Positions 7,492-41,576 of a stretch of DNA of 64,000 nt are shown here, piece after piece. Source of the stretch: Streptomyces venezuelae (GTDB taxonomy: Bacteria > Actinomycetota > Actinomycetes > Streptomycetales > Streptomycetaceae). The stretch is taken from positions 2,328,001 through 2,392,000 of the forward strand of contig NZ_CP029190.1 of assembly GCF_008642295.1 (NCBI RefSeq), in the 5' to 3' direction. The stretch's first letter is position 1. Each line of letters opens with the position of its first letter. The notes under the pieces were generated by a model that had not been told where the DNA came from, made no database searches, and worked only from the letters and a program-made list of their open reading frames with translations. Made by a program: the position numbers and the translations under genes.

Positions 7492-8573
7492 AGCTTCGGC
7501 GCAATCTCTTCGGTCCAGATCCGGGTCCGCTCCTCCTGCGACATGTGGCAGGCGGACCAGTGCCGTTCACCGTCGGCGGTCACCAGCTCCGGACGGACGG
7601 TCCGGGTGAGGTTGTCCTTGGGCAGGTCGGCGTACGGGCAGCGCGGGTGGAAGGCGCAGCCGCTGGGGATGTTGATCAGACTGGGCGGGGAGCCCTTGAC
7701 CGGGATGAGGCGCTCGGTCTGGTCCCGGTCGATACGCGGCATCGAGCCGAGCAGGCCCCAGGTGTACGGGTGCCGGGGCTCGTAGAAGACCTTCTCGGCG
7801 GTGCCGCGCTCCACGCACCGGCCGCCGTACATCACCAGGATGTCGTCGGCCATCTCGGCGACCACGCCGAGATCGTGCGTGATCATGATGACGGCGGAGC
7901 CGAACTCCTTCTGCAGATCGCGGATCAGGTCCAGGATCTGCGCCTGGACGGTGACGTCCAGGGCGGTGGTCGGCTCGTCCGCGATGAGCAGCTCGGGGTT
8001 GTTGACCAGGGCCATCGCGATCATCGCGCGCTGGCGCATACCGCCGGAGAACTCGTGCGGGTAGGCGTCGACGCGCTTGCCCGGCTCGGGGATGCCGACG
8101 CGGTCGAGCATCTCGACCGCGCGCTTCTTCGCGGTCTTCTTGTCGACGTCGTGGTGCGTCCGGTACGCCTCGATGATCTGGTGCCCGACCGTGTAGTACG
8201 GGTGCATGGCGCTCAGCGGGTCCTGGAAGACCATGGCCATCTTGCGGCCCCGCAGCCGCCGCACCTCGTCGGCGTCGGCGCGCAGCAGCTCCTCGCCGTC
8301 CAGCCAGACCTCGCCCTGGATGGCGGGCCGGGAGCGGGAGTGCCCGGTGCGGTGCAGGCCCATGACAGCGAGCGAGGTCACCGACTTGCCGGAGCCGGAC
8401 TCGCCCACGATGCCGAGGGTCTTGCCGCGCTCCAGGTCGAAGGAGAGCCCGTCGACGGACTTGACCAGGCCGTCGTCGGTGGGGAAGTGCACCTTGAGGT
8501 CGCGGACCGAGAGGAATGCATCGGAACGGGGCCCCGACTGCTCGGGGACCAGGGGGGTGTGGTTCTCGGTCAC
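7488..8573 (-). CDS. Oligopeptide/dipeptide ABC transporter ATP-binding protein (DppD/OppD type)
   Basis: First ATPase subunit of the peptide importer, 361 residues. Motifs in order: Walker A GESGSGKSVTS, signature FSGGMRQRAMIAMAL, Walker B LLIADEPTTALD, switch histidine in VIMITHDLGV, and the C-terminal cysteine segment GCAFHPRCPYAD. The GTG start (VTENHTPLVPEQ) overlaps the permease stop by 4 bp (GTGA). A longer open frame runs upstream to 9290 but is the permease gene read out of frame. Works with its partner ATPase to energise peptide uptake at the cytoplasmic membrane. Confidence 0.93.
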   Translation of the reverse strand: MTENHTPLVPEQSGPRSDAFLSVRDLKVHFPTDDGLVKSVDGLSFDLERGKTLGIVGESGSGKSVTSLAVMGLHRTGHSRSRPAIQGEVWLDGEELLRADADEVRRLRGRKMAMVFQDPLSAMHPYYTVGHQIIEAYRTHHDVDKKTAKKRAVEMLDRVGIPEPGKRVDAYPHEFSGGMRQRAMIAMALVNNPELLIADEPTTALDVTVQAQILDLIRDLQKEFGSAVIMITHDLGVVAEMADDILVMYGGRCVERGTAEKVFYEPRHPYTWGLLGSMPRIDRDQTERLIPVKGSPPSLINIPSGCAFHPRCPYADLPKDNLTRTVRPELVTADGERHWSACHMSQEERTRIWTEEIAPKL

Positions 8574-9571
8574 GTCAGCCTCACGCGCGGGTCGATGACG
8601 GCGTACAGCATGTCCACGATCAGGTTCGCCATCACGACGAACAGCGCCGCGAGCAGGGTCACGCCCATGATCACGGGCAGGTCGCCGTCCCTGATCGCGC
8701 CGACGGCCGCCGTGCCCAGGCCCTGGAAGTTGAAGGTGGTCTCGGTGAGGACGGCGCCGCCGAGCAGACCTCCGAAGTCCAGGCCGAACATGGTGACCAG
8801 CGGGGTGAGGGTGGAGCGCAGGGCGTGCTTGCGGATGACCACCCGCTCGGTCAGGCCCTTGGCGCGTGCGGTGCGGATGTAGTCCTCGCCCATCACCTCG
8901 AGCATGGTGGCGCGGGTGATGCGGGCGTAGGTGGCGGCGAAGAGGAAGGCCAGCGTGATCCAGGGCAGGATCATGCTGTTCAGCCAGGCCCCCGGATCCT
9001 CGGTGAGAGGTTTGTAGTTGGAGGCGTCCAGCCAGCCGAGGCCGTAGACCAGGATCGCCGGGGCGAGCAGGCCGGTGAAGAAGATCGGCAGCGATACGCC
9101 GGCCAGGGCACCGACCATCACCGCGCGGTCGACCATGGTGCGGCGTTTGAGTGCCGAGACCACACCGGTCAGGACACCCGCGATGACCCAGATCACGGCC
9201 GCGCCGAGGGCCAGCGAGACGGTCACCGGCAGACGGTCGATCAGCGTGTCCCAGACGGGTGTCTCGCTCTTGAAGGAGTAGCCGAAGCACGGGGCCGGGC
9301 AGTGGGTCGTGTCCACGCCGTTGTCGTAGTCACGGCCGGCCACGATGCCCTTGAGAAAGAGCAGGTACTGCTCGGAGATCGGCTTGTCGAAGCCCATCTT
9401 CGCGCGGATGCCCGCCAGGGCGGTCTCATTGGTCTCGCGGCCGGCGTACATCAGCGCGGGATCGGACCCGGTGATCTTCGGCACCGCGAAGAAGATGCCG
9501 AAGGTGACCACGGAGACCACCAGCAGCGTGGAGACGACGTTGAACAGCCGCCGGATGAGGTAGACGAGCAC
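8570..9571 (-). CDS. Oligopeptide ABC transporter permease (DppB/OppB type)
   Basis: Six-helix inner-membrane permease of 333 residues. The N-terminus LVYLIRRLFNVVSTLLVVSVVTFGIFF in two parts is the classical first helix of DppB-type permeases. The large extracellular loop after it contains two cysteines (CPAPCFGY). The EAA-type cytoplasmic loop is visible as YIRTARAKGLTERVVIRKHA. It forms the translocation pore with the second permease encoded at 11501-12496. It is followed by the DppD-type ATPase with a 4-bp overlap. Confidence 0.92.
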   Translation of the reverse strand: MLVYLIRRLFNVVSTLLVVSVVTFGIFFAVPKITGSDPALMYAGRETNETALAGIRAKMGFDKPISEQYLLFLKGIVAGRDYDNGVDTTHCPAPCFGYSFKSETPVWDTLIDRLPVTVSLALGAAVIWVIAGVLTGVVSALKRRTMVDRAVMVGALAGVSLPIFFTGLLAPAILVYGLGWLDASNYKPLTEDPGAWLNSMILPWITLAFLFAATYARITRATMLEVMGEDYIRTARAKGLTERVVIRKHALRSTLTPLVTMFGLDFGGLLGGAVLTETTFNFQGLGTAAVGAIRDGDLPVIMGVTLLAALFVVMANLIVDMLYAVIDPRVRLT

Positions 9572-32351: not shown

Positions 32352-33119
32352 TCAGAGGAATTTCGCCTTGCCCGGGCCCTCGGTGACGAAGCTGCTCATC
32401 CCGCGCTCCCGGTCCTCGGTCGCGAACAGCCCGGCGAACCAGCTGCGTTCGATGGCCAGGCCGGTGTCGATGTCCGCCTCCAGGCCGCCGTCCACGCACT
32501 CCTTCGCGGCGCGCAGGGCGATGGCCGGCCCCTGGGCCAGCTTCGCCGCCCAGGCGTGCGCCTGCTCGTACACCTCGGCGGCCGGCACCACCCGGTCGAC
32601 CAGGCCGAGGGCCAGGGCCTCGTCCGCCTTGACCATCCGGCCGGTGAAGATGAGGTCCTTGGCCCGGGACGGCCCGATCAGCCGGGACAGCCGCTGGGTG
32701 CCGCCGGCCCCCGGGATCAGGCCGAGGAGGATCTCCGGCTGGCCGAGCTTGGCGTCCTCGGCGGCGATCCGGTAGTCCGCGCAGAGCGCCAGCTCGCAAC
32801 CGCCGCCCAGGGCGTAGCCGGTGACGGCGGCGACCACGGGCTTGGGGATCCGGGCCACGGCGGTGAAGGAGTCCTGCAGGGCCCGGGACCGCGCGACCAT
32901 CGCCGCGTGGTCCATGGCCTGCATCTCCTTGATGTCCGCGCCGGCCGCGAACACCTTCTCGCCGCCGTACAGGATCACCGCGCGGACGTCGGTGCGCTCG
33001 GCGGCCTCCGTCGCCAGCTCGCGCAGCCGGTCCTGGGTGGCGATGTCCAGGGCGTTCATGGGCGGCCGGTCCAGCCGGATGGTGCCGACGCCTTCGGAGA
33101 CTTCGAGAGTGAGGGTCAT
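32352..33119 (-). CDS. Enoyl-CoA hydratase/isomerase family protein
   Basis: Crotonase-fold enzyme, 255 residues. The oxyanion-hole residues are in GGEKVFAAGADIKEM and GYALGGGCELALCADYRI; the second catalytic Glu position is in KLGQPEILLGLIPGAGGTQR. Both glutamates of true hydratases (in CELALCAD and QPEI) are present, so it can be expected to hydrate 2-enoyl-CoA in beta-oxidation or a related degradation route. ATG at 33119. It stands alone, with no other fatty-acid gene nearby. Confidence 0.9.
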   Translation of the reverse strand: MTLTLEVSEGVGTIRLDRPPMNALDIATQDRLRELATEAAERTDVRAVILYGGEKVFAAGADIKEMQAMDHAAMVARSRALQDSFTAVARIPKPVVAAVTGYALGGGCELALCADYRIAAEDAKLGQPEILLGLIPGAGGTQRLSRLIGPSRAKDLIFTGRMVKADEALALGLVDRVVPAAEVYEQAHAWAAKLAQGPAIALRAAKECVDGGLEADIDTGLAIERSWFAGLFATEDRERGMSSFVTEGPGKAKFL

Positions 33120-33161: not shown

Positions 33162-34376
33162 CTACTTGATCCACTCCGCCCAGGACATGTTCCAGCCGTT
33201 CAGGCCGTTGTCCGGGGCGATCTGCTTGTCCTTGGAGTTCTTCACGATCACCACGTCGCCGATGATCGAGTTGTCGTAGAACCAGGCCGCCGGGGCGTTG
33301 GGGTCCCCTGCGCCGCGCACGTCGCGCAGGCCCACGCAGCCGTGGCTGACGTTCTCCGAGCCGAAGGTGGACGCGGCGGCCCAGTAGTTGCCGTGGACGA
33401 AGGTGCCGGAGGTGGACAGGCGCATCGCGTGCGGCACGTCCTTGATGTCGTACTCGCCGCCGAACCCGACGGTCGCGCCGTTCATCCGGGTCACCTTGTA
33501 CTTCTCGCTGATGACCATCTGCCCGTTGTACGTGGTGGTCGACGGTGCGCCGGCGGTGATCGGAACGTTCTTGAGCACCTGCCCGTCCCGGACCACCTCC
33601 ATCTGGTGGGTGCTCGCGTCCACGGTGGTGACCTGGGAGCGGTCGATGCTGAAGGTGACGGTGCGGGTCTGCTTGCCGTAGACCCCGGGGCGGCCTTCCA
33701 CCCCGTCCAGGTTCAGCTTGACGGTGACCTTGGTGCCGGGCGCCCAGTACTTCTCCGGGCGGAAGTCGAGCCGGTCGTTGCCGAACCAGTGGCCCTCGAC
33801 GGGCACGGCGGGCTCGGCGGTGACGGTGATGGCCTTCTCGACGGCCTCCGGGTTGGTGATGCCCCGGGTGAAGTTGATCGAGACCGGCATGCCGACGCCG
33901 ACCTTCGCACCGTCCTCGGGGGTGTAGTGCCCGATGAAGGTGTTCTTCGGGGTGAGGGTGGTGAAGGTGATGTCCTTGGCGGACTCCCGGCCCGCCGGGT
34001 CCTTGGCGACCGCGTGCACCTTGTACTCGGTGGCCGAGCCCAGGTGCCGGGAGGGCTCCCAGCTGGTGCCGTCGGCGGCCAGCTTGCCCTCCACCTGGTT
34101 GCCCTTGGTGTCGGCGACGGTGACGGTGGCCAGCTTGCCGCCGGCCGCGGTTATCTTCAGGACGCCGCTGGTCGCGACCTCCTTGGCACCGTCGTCCGGC
34201 TTGATGGTGACAACCGCCTGGGACGCCTCGGTACCGGTCTTGCCGCTGCCGCCGCCCTTGTTGGTGTCGCCGCCGCTGCCGGTGCCGTTGCTGTTGCCGC
34301 CGCTGCACGCCGAGGTGAGCAGCAGGGCCGCCCCCAGCAGCAGGGCCGACAGGGCACGTGTCGGCTGGACGTTCAC
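33162..34376 (-). CDS. L,D-transpeptidase lipoprotein (Ig-like domains plus YkuD)
   Basis: Makes 3-3 cross-links between peptidoglycan stems, or attaches proteins to them. About 404 residues: signal peptide TRALSALLLGAALLLTSAC with lipobox, Gly/Ser/Asn linker, two Ig-like domains of the LdtMt2/LppS kind (ITAAGGKLATVTVADTKG; TFTTLTPKNTFIGHYTPEDG), then the YkuD domain ending in HGNYWAAASTFGSENVSHGC with the catalytic SHGC. GTG at 34376 has GGGGAG seven bases upstream; ATG at 34391 would swallow that site. It is paralogous to the enzyme at 37892-39139, and the large SpaA-repeat protein lies between them. Confidence 0.92.
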   Translation of the reverse strand: MNVQPTRALSALLLGAALLLTSACSGGNSNGTGSGGDTNKGGGSGKTGTEASQAVVTIKPDDGAKEVATSGVLKITAAGGKLATVTVADTKGNQVEGKLAADGTSWEPSRHLGSATEYKVHAVAKDPAGRESAKDITFTTLTPKNTFIGHYTPEDGAKVGVGMPVSINFTRGITNPEAVEKAITVTAEPAVPVEGHWFGNDRLDFRPEKYWAPGTKVTVKLNLDGVEGRPGVYGKQTRTVTFSIDRSQVTTVDASTHQMEVVRDGQVLKNVPITAGAPSTTTYNGQMVISEKYKVTRMNGATVGFGGEYDIKDVPHAMRLSTSGTFVHGNYWAAASTFGSENVSHGCVGLRDVRGAGDPNAPAAWFYDNSIIGDVVIVKNSKDKQIAPDNGLNGWNMSWAEWIK

Positions 34377-34510
34377 TGTTCTTCTCCCCATGTCCCCCGC
34401 GCGCAGGCAGTCGCGCGCGCTGTCGACAGGTAACCACATGGGGGTATGACGAAGAGCTACGGACGTGTCACCGTTCCGTCCCAACTGATGCAGAGGCCAC
34501 GTGAACGCGC

Positions 34511-34542
34511 GCCGGCCCGGAACCTGAAGGTTCCGGGCCGGC
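34511..34542 (-). terminator. Terminator of the SpaA-repeat gene
   Basis: Perfect 15-bp stem with arms GCCGGCCCGGAACCT and AGGTTCCGGGCCGGC and a two-base loop centre, 15 bp past the stop codon of the surface-protein gene. Confidence 0.7.
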
Positions 34543-34556
34543 GGTGGTGCGGGTGG

Positions 34557-37500
34557 TCAGTGGGCCTTGGGCTTGGCCTTGGCGTGGGCCTTGGCGTTGG
34601 CCTTCGGCTTGGGCTTGGCCTTGGGGTGACCCTTGCCGTGGCCGTTGCCGCCGGTGCCGTTCCCGCCGGTGCCCTGGGACCGGACGTTCTTCACCTTGAC
34701 CAGGAGGCTGTGCCCCGAGGTGCGGGTGTTGCCGCCCAGCTGGAGCGGGCCGGTCACCGGGTAACGGGGCTTCACGTAGCCGCGGGGCGGGGCGGTCTCC
34801 CGTACGTAGTACGCGCCCTCGGCCAGGCCGTCCCAGGCGCAGGCGCCCTGCCGGTCCGTCTGGCAGCTACGGGCGGCCTTGCGGTCGGGGTTGCGGCCCT
34901 GCGTCTGCAGGCCGCGGACGCCGTTGGTCTCCCGCCACAGTTCGAACACCGCGCCGGCCAGCGGCCTGCCGGTCTGGGCGTCCTTCTTGAGCACCCGGAT
35001 CGAACCGCGGAACGGCGGCTTGTGCTTCTTGTTGACCGCCACGGCGGTGACGCCGGTCTCCAGGTTCTCGTCGGTCAGCTCCAGCGGACCGAACACCGGG
35101 TCCTTCGGGAGCAGGTAGCCGTCCGGGGCCTGGGTCTCCCGCCAGTAGTAGATGCCCTTCTCCACGTCACGGGCGCAGACGCCGTCCTTCGCCGTGGTGC
35201 AGTCCGCCACCTTGGAGTCGGGGTTGTTGCCGGTGGTCTGGAGGCCCTCCACCCCATTGGACTCGCGCCACAGCTCGAACTGGGCGCCGGCCAGCGGCTT
35301 GTCCTTCGGGTCGGTCTTGGTGACGGAGACCCGGCCGCGCGGCGGCGTGACATTGGTGACCCGCTCGGTGACGCCCAGCTCGGCGTTCTCCGCGGTGAGC
35401 TCCAGCGGCCCGAAGACCGGGTTCGCCGGGAACTCGAAGCCGGGCGGGGCCTGGATCTCCACCCAGTAGTACGTCCCGGTGGGGACGGTCCGGGTGCAGG
35501 TGCCGTTCGCCGGGGTGGTGCAGGGCGAGCCGACCCGGGTGTCGGGGTTGGCGTCGTCCTCCCGCTGGAGGCCTTCCTGTCCGTTGGTCTCCCGCCACAG
35601 CTCGAAGACCGCGCCCGCCAGCGGGGTGCCGCCGGAGTTGGTCTTGATCACGGTCACGGGGCCGGTGATCCGCGGGTCGTCGGCCAGGACCCGTACGCCG
35701 GTCCGGGCGTTGCCCTGGGTCAGCAGCACCGGGCCGAAGACCGTGTCCTCCGGGAGCCGGTAGCCGGGCGGGGCCTGGATCTCCTCCCAGAAGTAGCGGC
35801 CGATCGGCGCGTTGACCACACAGGTGCCGTTCGCCCCCGTGGTGCAGACGAGCCCGACCCGGGTGTCCGGGTTGAAGCCGGTGGTCTGGAGGCCGGGAAT
35901 ACCGTTGCTGTCCCGCCACAGCTGGAACTGGGCACCGGCGAGCACCGCTCCGCTCGCCGCGTCCCGCTTGACGAGCGAGACGGGGCCGGTGATGGGCGGC
36001 TCCCGCGGGTCGTCCAGGGTGACGGTCGCGTGGTTGTTGGGGGTCTGTGCGTTCAGGACCACGGTGACGACCGGGTTGGCCGGCGTCAGGTGTCCGTCGG
36101 CCGGCTGGATCTCGCGCCAGTAATAGGTGCCGAACTCGACCGTGCGGGTGCAGATGCCGTTGGCGGGCGTCACACACTCACTGATCCTGCGGTCGACCAT
36201 GGGATCGAAGCCGGAGCCGCTCACTTCCCGCCACAGCTCGAAGGTGGCACCGGAGAGCGGCTCCTGGTTCTCCGCATCCCGCTTCAGGACCGAGACCCTG
36301 CCCAGCGGCGCTTCGTTCCGGCGGTCCAGAACGTTCGCCGAGGTTCCGCCCTGGGGGTTGCTGGCGACCAGCGGGGTCAACGGGTTCACCGGAAGGTTGT
36401 AGCCGGGCGGGGCCTGGACCTCAAGCCAGTAGTAGGGGTCGGGCTGGATGGGCACGGTGCGCGTGCAGCGGCCGTCGGGGCCGGTCAGGCAGTCGCCGTC
36501 CCACTTGGTGTCCCCACCGGGGCCCGTCTGGAGGCCCATCACGCCGTTCGACTCGCGCCACAGCTCGAACCTGGCGTCCGCGAGCAGTGCCTGGGTGACG
36601 CCGTCCCGCTTGAAGACGGTCACCTGGCTGACCTGCGGGGGCTGCGCGCAGTCGTCGGGCAGGTTTCCGGTGAACGGGTAGGAGTGGATTTCCTGGCCCG
36701 AGCCGCGGTCCGCCGAGCCGTGCGTCAGCGAGCCCGCCGTGTAGACCCGGCCGCTGAGGCCGGTCGTGGTCACGGTGGTCAGCGAGCTGTACTGGCCCAT
36801 CAGGTGGGTGCCCTGGAACTCGGCATCGCCGCGCAGGTTGAGCGTGGTGGCGTCCGGATAGTTCCACAGCAGCCTCGGCCGCAGCCGGTTGAAGGGGTCG
36901 TTCTCGTCGTAGCTGCCGCTGAAGCTGTCGACGTACCGGGTGGTCCCGTGCACGTTCACCAGGACGGTCGCGCCGTCCGGGATGCCACTGAACTGGAAGG
37001 CCGCCGATCCGCCGCCGGGGAGGGCGGTCAGGTTCTGGTCGATGTTGAAGACCTGGAGCTGCGAGCTGCCGTCACCGGAGAAGAGGACCGTCCCGCCGAT
37101 GACCGTCACGCTGCCGGTCGCCGTGCGCACCACCCCGCCCGGCCGGGCCAGGCACTGGCTGGTCGCGCTGAGGCTGTTGCGGAACGCCGCGTACGGGGCG
37201 ACCGCGTTCGCGTCCTGCACGGTGGTGCCGCTGACGCTGCCGGTCAGGGTGCCCGCGTACCGGACGATGCCCGTGTCGGCGTGCAGGTCCTGGCCGGCGG
37301 CCACGGTGACGTTGCCGCCGGCGACGAGGAAGTCGGTGCCGGCGGGCGGCGGGACCCGGGAGCCGACGGGGGCGACGCCGACGAAGTAGCCGTCGCTGCC
37401 GACCGCGGTCTTGTTCTGGTCGAAGTCCCCGAGGGTGACCACCTTGCCCTCGGTGGCCGCCGCCGTGCCGCGGACCCGGAAGTCGTCGCCGACGAAGGCG

Positions 37501-37748
37501 TTGATGTTGCGGTCGCGGCCCGCGAACGGCCCGTCGTTGATGCCCGGGTAGACGGCGGGACACTCCGGGCCGAGGCACGGTCCCAGCTGGTTCGGCAACG
37601 GGATCGCCGCCCGGGCGGCGGGTCGTGGCGCGGGTTTCGCCCCCGAGCCCGGGGCGGCCACGGCCGGCATCGCGCCGACGAGCAGGGCGCCCAGCGCCAT
37701 GCCCGCGACCCACGACCGTCTCGCACGCCGGGAAGACCTTGCTGTCAT
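34557..37748 (-). CDS. Choice-of-anchor-A surface protein with six SpaA/CnaB-like repeats and Lys-rich tail
   Basis: Exported protein of 1063 residues. A long signal peptide (SSRRARRSWVAGMALGALLV ending near AVAAP) leads to a choice-of-anchor-A domain (about 60-370; NAFVGDDFRVRGTAAATEG). Six prealbumin/SpaA-like repeats of about 107 residues start near 376, 483, 589, 697, 806 and 915; each has a (V/I)xxxK start, a FELWRE-type strand, a Cys pair CxTxxxGxC and mostly a YYWxExQAPxGY end. The last 28 residues contain nine Lys and four His (KAKPKPKANAKAHAKAKPKA). There is no LPxTG motif or C-terminal membrane helix, so sortase cannot anchor it. ATG with GGAG five bases before. Flanked on both sides by L,D-transpeptidase genes on the same strand. 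Predicted adhesin or wall fibre. Confidence 0.85.
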   Translation of the reverse strand: MTARSSRRARRSWVAGMALGALLVGAMPAVAAPGSGAKPAPRPAARAAIPLPNQLGPCLGPECPAVYPGINDGPFAGRDRNINAFVGDDFRVRGTAAATEGKVVTLGDFDQNKTAVGSDGYFVGVAPVGSRVPPPAGTDFLVAGGNVTVAAGQDLHADTGIVRYAGTLTGSVSGTTVQDANAVAPYAAFRNSLSATSQCLARPGGVVRTATGSVTVIGGTVLFSGDGSSQLQVFNIDQNLTALPGGGSAAFQFSGIPDGATVLVNVHGTTRYVDSFSGSYDENDPFNRLRPRLLWNYPDATTLNLRGDAEFQGTHLMGQYSSLTTVTTTGLSGRVYTAGSLTHGSADRGSGQEIHSYPFTGNLPDDCAQPPQVSQVTVFKRDGVTQALLADARFELWRESNGVMGLQTGPGGDTKWDGDCLTGPDGRCTRTVPIQPDPYYWLEVQAPPGYNLPVNPLTPLVASNPQGGTSANVLDRRNEAPLGRVSVLKRDAENQEPLSGATFELWREVSGSGFDPMVDRRISECVTPANGICTRTVEFGTYYWREIQPADGHLTPANPVVTVVLNAQTPNNHATVTLDDPREPPITGPVSLVKRDAASGAVLAGAQFQLWRDSNGIPGLQTTGFNPDTRVGLVCTTGANGTCVVNAPIGRYFWEEIQAPPGYRLPEDTVFGPVLLTQGNARTGVRVLADDPRITGPVTVIKTNSGGTPLAGAVFELWRETNGQEGLQREDDANPDTRVGSPCTTPANGTCTRTVPTGTYYWVEIQAPPGFEFPANPVFGPLELTAENAELGVTERVTNVTPPRGRVSVTKTDPKDKPLAGAQFELWRESNGVEGLQTTGNNPDSKVADCTTAKDGVCARDVEKGIYYWRETQAPDGYLLPKDPVFGPLELTDENLETGVTAVAVNKKHKPPFRGSIRVLKKDAQTGRPLAGAVFELWRETNGVRGLQTQGRNPDRKAARSCQTDRQGACAWDGLAEGAYYVRETAPPRGYVKPRYPVTGPLQLGGNTRTSGHSLLVKVKNVRSQGTGGNGTGGNGHGKGHPKAKPKPKANAKAHAKAKPKAH

Positions 37749-37891
37749 GGCGCTCCATCTAATCGTTTGGATTGCCTGGACAGACTGGTCGGGCGGGGGC
37801 GGCGGGCGGGGGCAACACCCGGGGGGTGCGGCCGGGCGGGTGCACGAGATCACCCGCGTAGCTGCGCCCGCCCGGGTCGGGCCACTGCGGG

Positions 37892-39139
37892 TCAGGTGAT
37901 CGCGGAGCCGGCGATCCAGTCCACCCAGGAGAGGTTCCAGCCGCCCAGGCCGTTGTCCGCGGCGACCGTCTTGTCCTGGGAGTTGACGACCTCCACGATG
38001 TCCCCGATCAGGGTGCGGTCGAAGAACCAGCCGGCCGGGGTGTCCGAGCCGCCGCCCTTGTTGTCGCGCAGGCCCACACAGCCGTGGCTGGTGTTGGTGG
38101 ACCCGAAGGTGTCGGGGTGGGCCCAGTAGTTCCCGTGCAGGAAGGTGCCGGAGCCGGTGAGCCGCATGGCGTGCGGGACGTCCGGGATGTCGTACTCGCC
38201 CTTGCCGTCCTCGCTGGTGAAGCCGACGGTGGCGCCGTTCATCCGGGTGACGTCGAACATCTCCATCACCACCATCTTGCCGTTGTACGTGGTGGTCTTG
38301 GGCGCGCCGGCGGTGACCGGGACGGTGGAGAGGACCTCGCCGTCGCGCCGGACCGTCATGGTGTGCTCGGCGGCGTCCACGGTGGAGATCTGGTGGCGGC
38401 CGACGGTGAAGCGGACGGTCTTGCTCTGGATGCCGTACGAGCCGCGGGCGCCCTCGACGTCGCGGAGCCGCATGTCGATGGTGACCTCGGTGCCCGGCTT
38501 CCAGTACTGCCGGGGGCGGAAGTCGAGGCGGTCGCGCCCGAACCAGTGGCCGACGACCTCGACGGCGGGCTTGGCGGTGATCCTGATGGCCCGTTCGACC
38601 TCGGCGCGGTTCTCGATGGACCGGTTGAACCGGAACGAGACGATCATGCCGGTGCCGACGGTGGAGCGGTTCTCGGGCTTGAAGTAGCCGATGAACCGCT
38701 CCTCGGGGACATAGGTGGTGAAGGTGGTGTGCCGGGCCTGGCGGCGGTCGTGGCCGTCGACGGCCACCGCGTCCACGGTGTACTTGGCGGCCAGGGCGAG
38801 CTTCCCGTAGTCCGGGTCGGGGCTCCAGCTGAGCCCGTCGGCGGCGATGGCCCCGGGCACCCGCTCCTGCTGGGCGTCCTCCACCTTGGTCACCACCACC
38901 CGCTCCAGCCGGCCCTCGGGCACGCTCACGGTCAGCGGCCCGTCGGCCGGCACGGCCCTGGCATTGTCCTCCGGGGTGATCCGGATGGCCTCCTCCGGCG
39001 AGCGGGGCTTGCCGGGCAGTTGGACCTCGATGGGGGATCCGCCGTCGGGGGTGCAGCCGGCCAGGCCGCCCAGCAGCCCCGCCCATGCCACCACGGCGGC
39101 CACGCCCGCCACTGCCCGCATCGCCCGCTTGGACGTCAC
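37892..39139 (-). CDS. L,D-transpeptidase lipoprotein, second paralogue
   Basis: 415-residue paralogue of the enzyme at 33162-34376 with the same plan: signal peptide AVAGVAAVVAWAGLLGGLAGC with lipobox LAGC, Ig-like domains (VPEGRLERVVVTKVED; TTFTTYVPEERFIGYFKPEN), and YkuD domain with HGNYWAHPDTFGSTNTSHGC catalytic region. The C-terminal NGLGGWNLSWVDWI ending matches NGLNGWNMSWAEWI of the first copy. The start is uncertain: GTG 39139 (MTSKRAMRAV) is used, GTG 39148 and ATG 39121 are alternatives, none with a strong ribosome-binding site. It is 143 bp upstream of the SpaA-repeat gene and could be co-transcribed with it. Confidence 0.9.
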   Translation of the reverse strand: MTSKRAMRAVAGVAAVVAWAGLLGGLAGCTPDGGSPIEVQLPGKPRSPEEAIRITPEDNARAVPADGPLTVSVPEGRLERVVVTKVEDAQQERVPGAIAADGLSWSPDPDYGKLALAAKYTVDAVAVDGHDRRQARHTTFTTYVPEERFIGYFKPENRSTVGTGMIVSFRFNRSIENRAEVERAIRITAKPAVEVVGHWFGRDRLDFRPRQYWKPGTEVTIDMRLRDVEGARGSYGIQSKTVRFTVGRHQISTVDAAEHTMTVRRDGEVLSTVPVTAGAPKTTTYNGKMVVMEMFDVTRMNGATVGFTSEDGKGEYDIPDVPHAMRLTGSGTFLHGNYWAHPDTFGSTNTSHGCVGLRDNKGGGSDTPAGWFFDRTLIGDIVEVVNSQDKTVAADNGLGGWNLSWVDWIAGSAIT

Positions 39140-39323: not shown

Positions 39324-41576
39324 GTGTCGAGCGCAGCCGAGCAAGAGGTGGTCGAGGGCGGTACGGCAGGTCCCGCCCCCCGGTCGAACGGAGTCGTACG
39401 GGCGGCCACGCGCCGCCCGGGGCCACCGGTGTGGCCCGGGTCCTCCCATCCGCTGGGGGCCCGTTACCGGGCCGGCCCGGACGGGGTGGCGGGGACCAAT
39501 TTCGCATTGTGGGCGCAGGGCGCGGAGGCGGTGGAACTGTGTCTCTTCGATGCGGAGGGCGGGGAGACGCGCTGTGCGCTGACCGAGCTGACGCACGAGA
39601 TCTGGCACGGGTTCGTGCCGGGGGTGCGGCCGGGGCAGCGGTACGGGTTCCGGGTGCACGGCCGCTGGGACCCCTGGACCGGCGCCCGGTTCAACCCGGC
39701 GAAGCTGCTGCTGGACCCGTACGCACGGGCCGTGGACGGGGACTTCACCCTGCCGCCGGAGGTGTACGGACACGTCCGGGACTGGCCGCAGCAGTACATC
39801 GCGGACACGGTGCGGGACGACCGGGACTCGGCGCCGTTCGTGCCGAAGGGGGTCGTGGTCCACGACGTGGACGACTGGTCGGACGACGTCCGGCCGAAGA
39901 CCCCGTGGGCGGATTCCGTCATCTACGAGCTGCATGTGCGCGGGTTCACCATGCGGCATCCGGGCGTTCCGGAGCACCTGCGCGGCACCTACGCGGGGCT
40001 GGCCCATCCGGCGGCCGTCGAGCACCTGCAACAGCTCGGGGTGACGGCGGTGGAGCTGCTGCCGGTGCACCAGTTCGCGCACGAGGACCATCTGCTGCGG
40101 CGGGGGCTGCGCAACCACTGGGGCTACAACTCCATCGGCTACTTCGCCCCGCACGCCGGCTACTCCTCCTCGGGGACGGCCGGGCAGCAGGTGGGCGAGT
40201 TCAAGCGGATGGTGCGGGCGCTGCACGCGGCCGGGATCGAGGTGATCCTGGACGTGGTCTACAACCACACGGCGGAGGCGGGCGAACTGGGGCCGACGCT
40301 GTCGCTGCGCGGGGTCGACAACCGGGGCTACTACCGCCTCCAGTCCGACCAGCGGCGGTATGCGGACTACACCGGCTGCGGGAACACCCTGCACGCCGGG
40401 CGCCCGCACGTGCTGCGGCTGATCACCGATTCGCTGCGGTACTGGGTCACCGAGATGGGGGTGGACGGGTTCCGCTTCGATCTGGCGGCGGCCCTGGCCC
40501 GGTCGATGCACGATGTGGACATGCTGTCGCCGTTCCTGGCGGTGATCGCCCAGGACCCGGTGCTGCGCCGGGTGAAGCTGATCGCGGAGCCCTGGGACGT
40601 GGGCTCGGGCGGCTACCAGGTGGGGGCCTTCCCGCCGCTGTGGACGGAGTGGAACGACCGCTACCGGGACGCGGTCCGGGATTTCTGGCGGGGCGCGCTG
40701 CCCGACGTACGGGATCTGGGGTACCGGCTCTCCGGGTCGAGCGATCTGTACGCCTGGGGCGGGCGGCGTCCGTACGCCTCGGTCAACTTCGTCACCGCGC
40801 ACGACGGTTTCACCCTGCGGGACCTGGTCAGTTACGAGCGCAAGCACAACGAGGCGAACGGGGAGGACAACCGGGACGGCACCAACGACAACCGGTCGTG
40901 GAACTGCGGGGTGGAGGGCGATCCGCCGGAGGGGGTGGATCCGCGGATCGCGGCGCTGCGCCGCCGTCAGCTCCGGAACCTGCTGACCACGCTGCTGCTG
41001 TCGACCGGGGTGCCGATGCTGGTGGCGGGGGACGAGTTCGGGCGCACCCAGGGCGGCAACAACAACGCGTACTGCCAGGACAACGAGACGGGCTGGGTGG
41101 ACTGGTCGCTGCTGTCGGATCCGGGGTGGCAGAACCTGTTCGCGCTGACCAGGCGGCTGCTCGCGCTGCGCCGGAGCCATCCGGTGCTGCGGCGGCGGGC
41201 GTTCTTCTCCGGCCGGCCGCAGGGCGCGGACGGGCTGCGGGACCTGGCCTGGTTCACCCCGGAGGGCACGGAGATGACCGAGCGGGACTGGTACGCGCCG
41301 GCCTCGGCGGTGGGCCTGTACCTGTCGGGGCGGGACATCCCGGGCCGGGACGAGCGGGGGCGGCAGGTGACGGACGACAGTTTCCTGGCCCTGCTGCACG
41401 CCGGGGACCGGCCGGTGTCGTGGATTCCGCCGGGTCCGCCGTGGGCCTCGTCCTACGAGGTGGTGCTGGACACCTCGCGGGAGGACCAGTCGGTGGTGCC
41501 GGGGCAGCTCTGCCGGGGCGGGCTGCCGCTCACGGTGCCGGCCCGCTCGGTGCTGCTGCTGCGGGTGGCCGACTGA
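39324..41576 (+). CDS. glgX: Glycogen debranching enzyme GlgX
   Basis: GH13 isoamylase-type enzyme removing short alpha-1,6 branches from phosphorylase-limited glycogen. 750 residues: an N-terminal CBM48-like domain (YRAGPDGVAGTNFALWAQGA), the catalytic barrel with DVVYNHTAE, GVDGFRFDLAAAL (nucleophile Asp), LIAEPWDVG (acid Glu), FVTAHDGFTLRDL (third Asp), and the GlgX-specific NGEDNRDGTNDNRSWNCG. GTG at 39324 has GGAGG seven bases before; the open frame runs further upstream across the divergent transpeptidase gene but is not family-like. Stands between unrelated genes. Confidence 0.93.
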   Translation: MSSAAEQEVVEGGTAGPAPRSNGVVRAATRRPGPPVWPGSSHPLGARYRAGPDGVAGTNFALWAQGAEAVELCLFDAEGGETRCALTELTHEIWHGFVPGVRPGQRYGFRVHGRWDPWTGARFNPAKLLLDPYARAVDGDFTLPPEVYGHVRDWPQQYIADTVRDDRDSAPFVPKGVVVHDVDDWSDDVRPKTPWADSVIYELHVRGFTMRHPGVPEHLRGTYAGLAHPAAVEHLQQLGVTAVELLPVHQFAHEDHLLRRGLRNHWGYNSIGYFAPHAGYSSSGTAGQQVGEFKRMVRALHAAGIEVILDVVYNHTAEAGELGPTLSLRGVDNRGYYRLQSDQRRYADYTGCGNTLHAGRPHVLRLITDSLRYWVTEMGVDGFRFDLAAALARSMHDVDMLSPFLAVIAQDPVLRRVKLIAEPWDVGSGGYQVGAFPPLWTEWNDRYRDAVRDFWRGALPDVRDLGYRLSGSSDLYAWGGRRPYASVNFVTAHDGFTLRDLVSYERKHNEANGEDNRDGTNDNRSWNCGVEGDPPEGVDPRIAALRRRQLRNLLTTLLLSTGVPMLVAGDEFGRTQGGNNNAYCQDNETGWVDWSLLSDPGWQNLFALTRRLLALRRSHPVLRRRAFFSGRPQGADGLRDLAWFTPEGTEMTERDWYAPASAVGLYLSGRDIPGRDERGRQVTDDSFLALLHAGDRPVSWIPPGPPWASSYEVVLDTSREDQSVVPGQLCRGGLPLTVPARSVLLLRVAD

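Follow-up and report, generated by a model that had tools for sequence, protein, structure and literature searches.

A candidate L,D-transpeptidase-dependent anchor for lysine-tailed SpaA adhesins of Streptomyces, with a divergent member in Streptomyces venezuelae

The stretch of Streptomyces venezuelae DNA analysed here, referred to as the window, comprises 64,000 nucleotides (NCBI RefSeq assembly GCF_008642295.1, contig NZ_CP029190.1, positions 2,328,001 to 2,392,000). Its minus strand holds a gene for a surface protein with SpaA repeats and a lysine-rich tail, set between two genes for L,D-transpeptidases (LDTs) of the YkuD type. One or both of these enzymes had been proposed, in the original prediction made from this DNA, to attach the tail to peptidoglycan. 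Comparison with other genomes of the genus showed that Lys-tailed SpaA adhesins free of a sorting signal are specifically paired, within their family, with one clade of a third type of LDT, here called the partner LDT, which may constitute a sortase-independent anchoring enzyme. The partner LDT was not found at the window locus.

The window locus

Three consecutive minus-strand genes, in the order LDT, surface protein, LDT, were confirmed. The surface protein is encoded at 34557..37748 (start codon ATG at 37748, stop at 34557) and has 1063 residues. The signal peptide and six SpaA repeats previously ascribed to it were borne out, the former by eye and the latter by Pfam, which recognized a pAdhesive_15 domain (PF20597) and six stretches of SpaA (prealbumin-like; PF17802) between residues ~376 and 1023 (34680..36623, minus strand). 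The N-terminal domain (residues 81-361; 36666..37508, minus strand) scored 166.9 bits against TIGR04215, the NCBIfam model of choice-of-anchor A proteins, whose cut-off is 29, and the protein is thus a member of that family. The combination of PF20597 with six PF17802 stretches also places it among SpaA-repeat fibrillar adhesins: in the window protein, six SpaA repeats form the stalk, and the adhesive domain, which is ice-binding-like, sits at the N-terminal end. By pattern, a strand lysine is present in four of the repeats (residues 380, 489, 702, and 811) and a glutamate in all six (443, 546, 656, 764, 871, and 984), from which we infer putative internal isopeptide bonds in the stalk.

The tail, composed of Lys, Ala, Pro, His, and Gly and ending in AKPKAH (34560..34691, minus strand; ...NVRSQGTGGNGTGGNGHGKGHPKAKPKPKANAKAHAKAKPKAH), has nine lysines among the final 28 residues, as previously noted, and the reported absence of both LPxTG and a hydrophobic C-terminal helix also held. 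No sortase anchor, that is LPxTG or LAxTG followed by a hydrophobic helix and a basic end, was detected in the protein; a look-alike of the sorting signal, YPVTG, lies inside the last SpaA repeat. The terminal residue is His rather than Lys, and the protein thus lacks the C-terminal Lys of the Braun type. The DNA encoding the tail is an imperfect tandem repeat with units of 6, 18, and 24 bp. In the AlphaFold model, with a mean predicted local distance difference test score (pLDDT) of 74.4, residues 1026-1063 fall below 50, and the tail is predicted to be disordered and of low complexity.

The upstream enzyme, LDT_up (37892..39139, minus strand), and the downstream enzyme, LDT_down (33162..34391, minus strand), are both lipoproteins as judged by eye, with lipoboxes LAGC and TSAC, respectively. 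Each combines Big_10 and YkuD domains, the latter at 53.9 and 53.3 bits against a curated Pfam cut-off of 23.4, and each holds the catalytic His and the Cys motif (HGNYWAHPDTFGSTNTSHGCVGL in LDT_up, HGNYWAAASTFGSENVSHGCVGL in LDT_down). The start of LDT_up was taken as GTG, with alternatives possible, and that of LDT_down as ATG, with an in-frame TTG at 34484 also possible. Directly after the surface gene lies a perfect 15-bp hairpin (34510..34543, minus strand), terminator-like and without a T-run; none of 200 shuffles of the 72-nucleotide region was equally stable (z -5.43). This hairpin was missed by a scan for T-run terminators, and the promoter and terminator scan of the window yielded no more than its shuffles did. 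The hairpin suggests that the surface gene and LDT_down are separate transcripts; a transcript shared by the two, considered as a candidate, is made unlikely by it. By synteny, the conserved block is bordered downstream by a gene that we take to be echA-like (32352..33119, minus strand) and upstream by a divergent gene, presumably glgX-like (39440..41576, start approximate, plus strand). The window genome, a single contig of 7.5 Mb, contains nine YkuD matches and seven sortase matches.

The flanking transpeptidase pair

The order glgX-LDT_up-LDT_down-echA was found intact without a surface gene in all nine loci chosen as holding LDT_up without an adjacent surface gene (L037, L038, L044, and L047-L052). 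In three of these (L037, L038, and L044) LDT_up is 80-85% identical to that of the window. A SpaA gene stands between the two LDT genes, as in the window, in 11 other loci (L033-L036, L039-L043, L045, and L046), and relatives of LDT_up occur in 199/199 genomes of the genus at an E value of 1e-60. Because the block also exists without a surface gene, and because a hairpin precedes LDT_down, the surface gene appears to have been inserted into a pre-existing LDT pair with no exclusive tie to it. The idea that the flanking enzymes have a dedicated function was accordingly rejected, and the proposal that they link the Lys tail to peptidoglycan is left unsupported.

The window protein shares this slot with proteins of 11 other fetched genomes, yet it is not their close relative. 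Its nearest relatives among those listed are P0005 (84% identity) and P0016 (73%), and it forms a separate, long branch in the tree of N-terminal domains. Replacement of the slot occupant or its rapid divergence are candidate explanations.

Tail classes in the family

Matches to the surface protein were present in 67/199 genomes of the genus. The loci surveyed were the listed matches together with L090 and L091, from other genera, and L096, which is biased because it was fetched through its LDT; G139 and G027 were left out. The resulting 92 table rows yielded 82 counted loci after removal of L001, of seven loci with cut, broken, or unclear ends (L078, L085, L114, L117, L121, L123, and L136), and of two fragments. 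Restoring all seven dropped ends, with L117 as Lys-tailed without an LDT, leaves the result the same. L001, the one relative obtained from a scan of contigs, belongs to Glycomyces and is of the sortase type.

Proteins that have no SpaA repeats end in a sortase-type signal or a C-terminal helix with an Arg-containing end, except for L085, L123, and L136, whose frames are broken or cut. SpaA-bearing proteins are without such a signal or helix, the exceptions being L103, L119, L120, and L090, the last from another genus. Of the SpaA-bearing members examined, nearly all possess a hydrophilic tail in place of a sortase signal. These SpaA proteins were divided into a Lys-tailed class (n = 43) and a class with acidic or Gly-Tyr tails (n = 10), and were set beside a sorting-signal/helix class (n = 29). 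No C-terminal helix was found in any of the 119 homologues listed, out of 313 matches and excluding the window protein.

In 39 of the 43 Lys-tailed proteins, the motif N-x-[RP]-[GD]-[EDGH]-x-x-K, often as NKRGEPCK, directly follows the last SpaA strand. It is absent from the ten acidic tails, occurs in 52/119 listed homologues, and gave no match in the preceding 165 residues, which served as a control. The Lys-tailed proteins lacking it are those of the window, L039 (where a Lys is kept at the same spacing), L060, and L099. Tails of the Lys class contain 230 Lys and 75 Arg, a K/(K+R) ratio of 0.75, compared with 0.34 in the repeats of the same proteins, 0.33 in acidic tails, and 0.02 in the final 12 residues of proteins of the sortase type. 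The Lys-tail rule and the motif were defined after the first sample had been seen, and both the enrichment and the motif count are partly circular, because the class is defined by Lys. With this limit, the use of Lys over Arg leans towards amine chemistry rather than charge. A C-terminal Lys occurs in 11/43 Lys-tailed loci and in 12/119 listed homologues. A DNA pattern for G-E-P-x-K-G-K, used as a pointer only, matched 32/199 genomes; many of its matches were SpaA gene ends and others were scattered, and the reversed control matches too.

Other tails were also observed. Loci L054, L062, L067, L069, L075, and L092 encode Gly-Tyr-rich acidic tails with GYGD-type repeats, without a sorting signal and with no LDT in the stretch. 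P0022, P0028, P0043, and other homologues from Kitasatospora and Streptomyces bear CPPKPCPP-rich tails in place of Lys motifs. In L053 and L058, the RGEPCKGKDC motif is followed by very long His/Cys/Asp-rich tails, possibly a metal-binding extension.

The partner transpeptidase

Many Lys-tailed SpaA genes adjoin a gene for the partner LDT, a secreted enzyme with the YkuD motif (e.g. HGHPGDLYDGGGSAGCVN). This gene lies within 1 kb in 28/43 Lys-tailed loci and within 4 kb in 32/43, the additional ones being L093, L094, L096, and L098; in L095 the distance is 13 kb. No partner LDT was found within 1 kb in the ten acidic or Gly-Tyr loci or in the 29 sorting-signal/helix loci (Fisher test of 28/43 against 0/39 others, 2.3e-11; against the 0/10 without a sorting signal, 1.7e-4). 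The anticipated co-occurrence of the tail type with an adjacent YkuD gene thus holds for the family but not for the enzymes originally named, the neighbour being a third LDT absent from the window locus. Homologues without a neighbouring transpeptidase, an observation named beforehand as adverse to the original prediction, do exist as regards the flanking type and in the acidic/Gly-Tyr and sorting-signal/helix classes.

The partner gene is mostly directly downstream of the SpaA gene and on the same strand; it is convergent in L073, L074, and L100, and upstream in L088. All six partner LDTs checked by Pfam contain YkuD, and two of them PG_binding_1, one above the cut-off. The catalytic His, Ser, Gly, and Cys are invariant in 20 aligned clade members. 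The predicted structure of a partner LDT (pLDDT 84.8) most resembles, among solved structures, an actinobacterial LDT, that of Stackebrandtia nassauensis (PDB 5bmq).

Relatives of the partner LDT occur in 194/199 genomes, and a tree of 62 LDTs separated 36 SpaA-linked enzymes (support of 99 in the Shimodaira-Hasegawa-like approximate likelihood ratio test) from 26 core paralogues, among them all 20 fetched to challenge the split. The 36 clade members belong to 34 genomes, all of which have a Lys-tailed SpaA gene; such a gene lies within 1 kb of 28 members, within 4 kb of four, at 13 kb from one, and elsewhere in the case of three. The latter concern G002, G021, and G047, where no SpaA gene adjoins the clade LDT and no LDT adjoins the SpaA gene; the LDT of G002 sits at the edge of a contig. 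A SpaA gene was found in none of the six core paralogue stretches fetched with wide flanks. Lys-tailed SpaA genes are present in 38 genomes, and no clade LDT was found in four of these, G000 (the window genome), G039, G168, and G108, with LDT matches weaker than about 1e-69, including those of G039 and G108, mostly left unclassified. The window genome has two weaker matches to the partner LDT, one of which, L110, is a core enzyme in the tree. Among the 11 other loci with a surface gene between LDT_up and LDT_down, ten also carry the third LDT. The slot loci without it, the window and L039, have long Lys-rich tails.

Several arrangements around the partner gene were noted. It stands 3.2-3.6 kb from the SpaA gene in L093, L094, L096, L098, L166, L170, and L177; the SpaA gene of L094-L096 is followed by a small gene resembling those for membrane proteins, and the SpaA proteins of L093-L096 have no choice-of-anchor A domain. 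Genome G108 holds an LDT remnant beside its SpaA gene. In L104, a broken-looking partner LDT remnant (~8253-9191) comes right after a SpaA gene with the tail RGEPCKGKKC, and an LDT of the Big_10/YkuD type lies 2.75 kb beyond it.

The pairing was also examined in a hold-out set of 15 close LDT matches outside the first sample, from a search of 392 genomes of the same genus, for which the prediction was written before the loci were fetched. A SpaA gene was located within 4 kb in 13/15 loci; all 13 proteins were without a sorting signal or helix, 12 obeyed the Lys-tail rule, and 11 had the strict motif. The protein of L172 keeps the Lys and misses the strict motif. When placed in the tree afterwards, 14 of the 15 enzymes fell into the SpaA-linked clade, and that of L178 fell on the core side (support 99). 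In L169 (8458-10442), a partner-type LDT lies upstream of a choice-of-anchor A frame that looks broken and has no SpaA repeats.

Interpretation and alternatives

The preferred reading, with a probability of roughly 0.45, is that Streptomyces possesses an LDT-dependent, sortase-independent anchor, of which the window protein would be a divergent member held by charge. In a more specific form, put forward tentatively from sequence comparison, a dedicated secreted LDT would stand in for sortase, linking a short Lys signal of the type N-x-R-G-E-P-x-K-G-K behind the SpaA stalk to LL-diaminopimelate peptidoglycan. Streptomyces peptidoglycan contains LL-diaminopimelate. The partner LDT would take a donor stem peptide at this residue and couple it with the side chain of a tail Lys, and the base of the SpaA stalk would thereby be fixed to the wall. 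In the window species, the partner would be gone and the tail would have become, by drift, a long repeat rich in Lys; its role could be filled by LDT_up, LDT_down, or a core LDT, a possibility that the comparisons do not support. The window protein is probably a divergent family member without the partner enzyme or the motif, most likely retained by charge on anionic wall polymers.

Some observations weigh against this reading. The covalent tail-wall link is inferred for every member, and the partner LDT is missing from the stretch in 10/43 Lys-tailed loci, the window among them. In the hold-out set, L165 has Arg at the position of the motif Lys and fails the Lys-tail rule, and L169 and L178 are without a nearby SpaA gene. 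A C-terminal Lys, considered as the conserved acceptor, was rejected, as it is not conserved. A clade of only those LDTs that have a SpaA gene within 1 kb was rejected by the approximately unbiased test (p 1.4e-44), because more remotely located members are nested among them. The trees offered two independent contrasts on well-supported branches and seven on the best tree, with a median sign-test p of 0.5; the contrasts that differ all point in the same direction. The correlation between tail and LDT is thus not significant once phylogeny is taken into account, since shared descent explains much of the clustering.

Among the alternatives, electrostatic retention survives best, although it is unlikely as an account of the family. 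According to it, the partner LDT has another role, and basic tails do no more than bind anionic polymers of the wall, teichoic or otherwise. Tails vary in length and composition, some are His-rich, and their last residue is not conserved, all of which agrees with binding by charge, as does the predicted disorder and low complexity of the window tail; the window copy fits best, because it has no partner enzyme. Electrostatic retention leaves the partner clade unexplained, however, as well as the preference for Lys over the commoner Arg (an argument that is partly circular) and the many tails with just two or three Lys amid acidic residues, such as RGEPCKGKDC.

The partner LDT might instead leave the protein unlinked and remodel or strengthen the wall at the site where a large adhesin passes through it. 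The PG_binding_1 domains mentioned above and the similarity to ordinary actinobacterial LDTs such as 5bmq would suit such a role, which is nevertheless improbable given that similar-sized, acidic-tailed SpaA proteins do without such a gene (0/10), as do the 29 proteins with a sorting signal or helix.

That LDT_up and/or LDT_down attach the Lys tail of the window protein is very improbable. In its favour, they adjoin the surface gene in the window and in 11 further genomes fetched from the first sample, and the two slot loci that lack the partner have long Lys-rich tails. Against this stand the nine tandems complete without a surface gene, the third LDT in 10/11 other slot loci, the hairpin ahead of LDT_down, and the terminal His.

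Finally, hitch-hiking, in which nothing but common descent keeps the LDT and adhesin genes together, draws on the few independent contrasts, the strong clustering of both labels on the trees, and the origin of the hold-out genomes in the same genus, and is the least probable alternative in view of the differing gene orders and strands, the several chromosomal locations, the pairing of SpaA proteins without a choice-of-anchor A domain (L093-L096), the non-adjacent co-occurrence in G021, G047, and G002 (the latter with its LDT at a contig edge), and the hold-out result.

For LDTs that seem interchangeable, the link between a tail motif and a single LDT clade provides a means of substrate prediction.

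Comparison with known systems

LPxTG-type signals are the common anchor of Gram-positive surface proteins. Sortase-type choice-of-anchor A proteins of Streptomyces share the N-terminal domain of the family described here; they differ in having an LPDTG-like or LAxTG-like signal, or a helix with an Arg end, and no SpaA repeats, and the fetched ones had no LDT in the stretch. If the preferred reading is true, it would be the first LDT-dependent route for Gram-positive surface adhesins known to us; among the open-access papers listed by the literature searches, none reported LDT-linked SpaA adhesins.

Fibrillar adhesins with SpaA or Cna_B stalks likewise combine an adhesive domain with a stalk. 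In the portion of a large survey available to us, an anchor was recorded in only about half of the positive training set of fibrillar adhesins, and unknown anchors were suspected (PMC9210967). The pairing of tail motif and LDT clade makes one answer to these directly testable.

In the sections consulted of two papers, LDTs of Gram-negative bacteria are described as using Lys side chains, including an internal one (PMC12274547, PMC12729407), and a December 2025 review, in the same partial view, describes LDT-based protein anchoring for Gram-negative bacteria (PMC12729407). The preferred reading, if true, would extend such anchoring to Gram-positive adhesins. Braun's lipoprotein with LdtA, LdtB, and LdtC of E. 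coli, and OutB of Dickeya with two LDTs, likewise depend on YkuD enzymes and, in the excerpts seen, resemble the present proposal in an acceptor Lys near the C-terminus (PMC12274547). They differ in being Gram-negative and in their C-terminal acceptor Lys, whereas the Streptomyces family consists of Gram-positive adhesins with a mostly internal Lys and a putative linkage (PMC12274547, in part). LimB of Coxiella burnetii, which the same excerpts describe as attached via an internal Lys, is alike in this respect, and is an unrelated outer-membrane lipoprotein (PMC12274547). The corynebacterial PorH/ProtX proteins are also actinobacterial and, in the text available, are considered probable cases of covalent attachment to the wall; they differ as mycomembrane proteins whose linking enzyme is not named there (PMC12632848).

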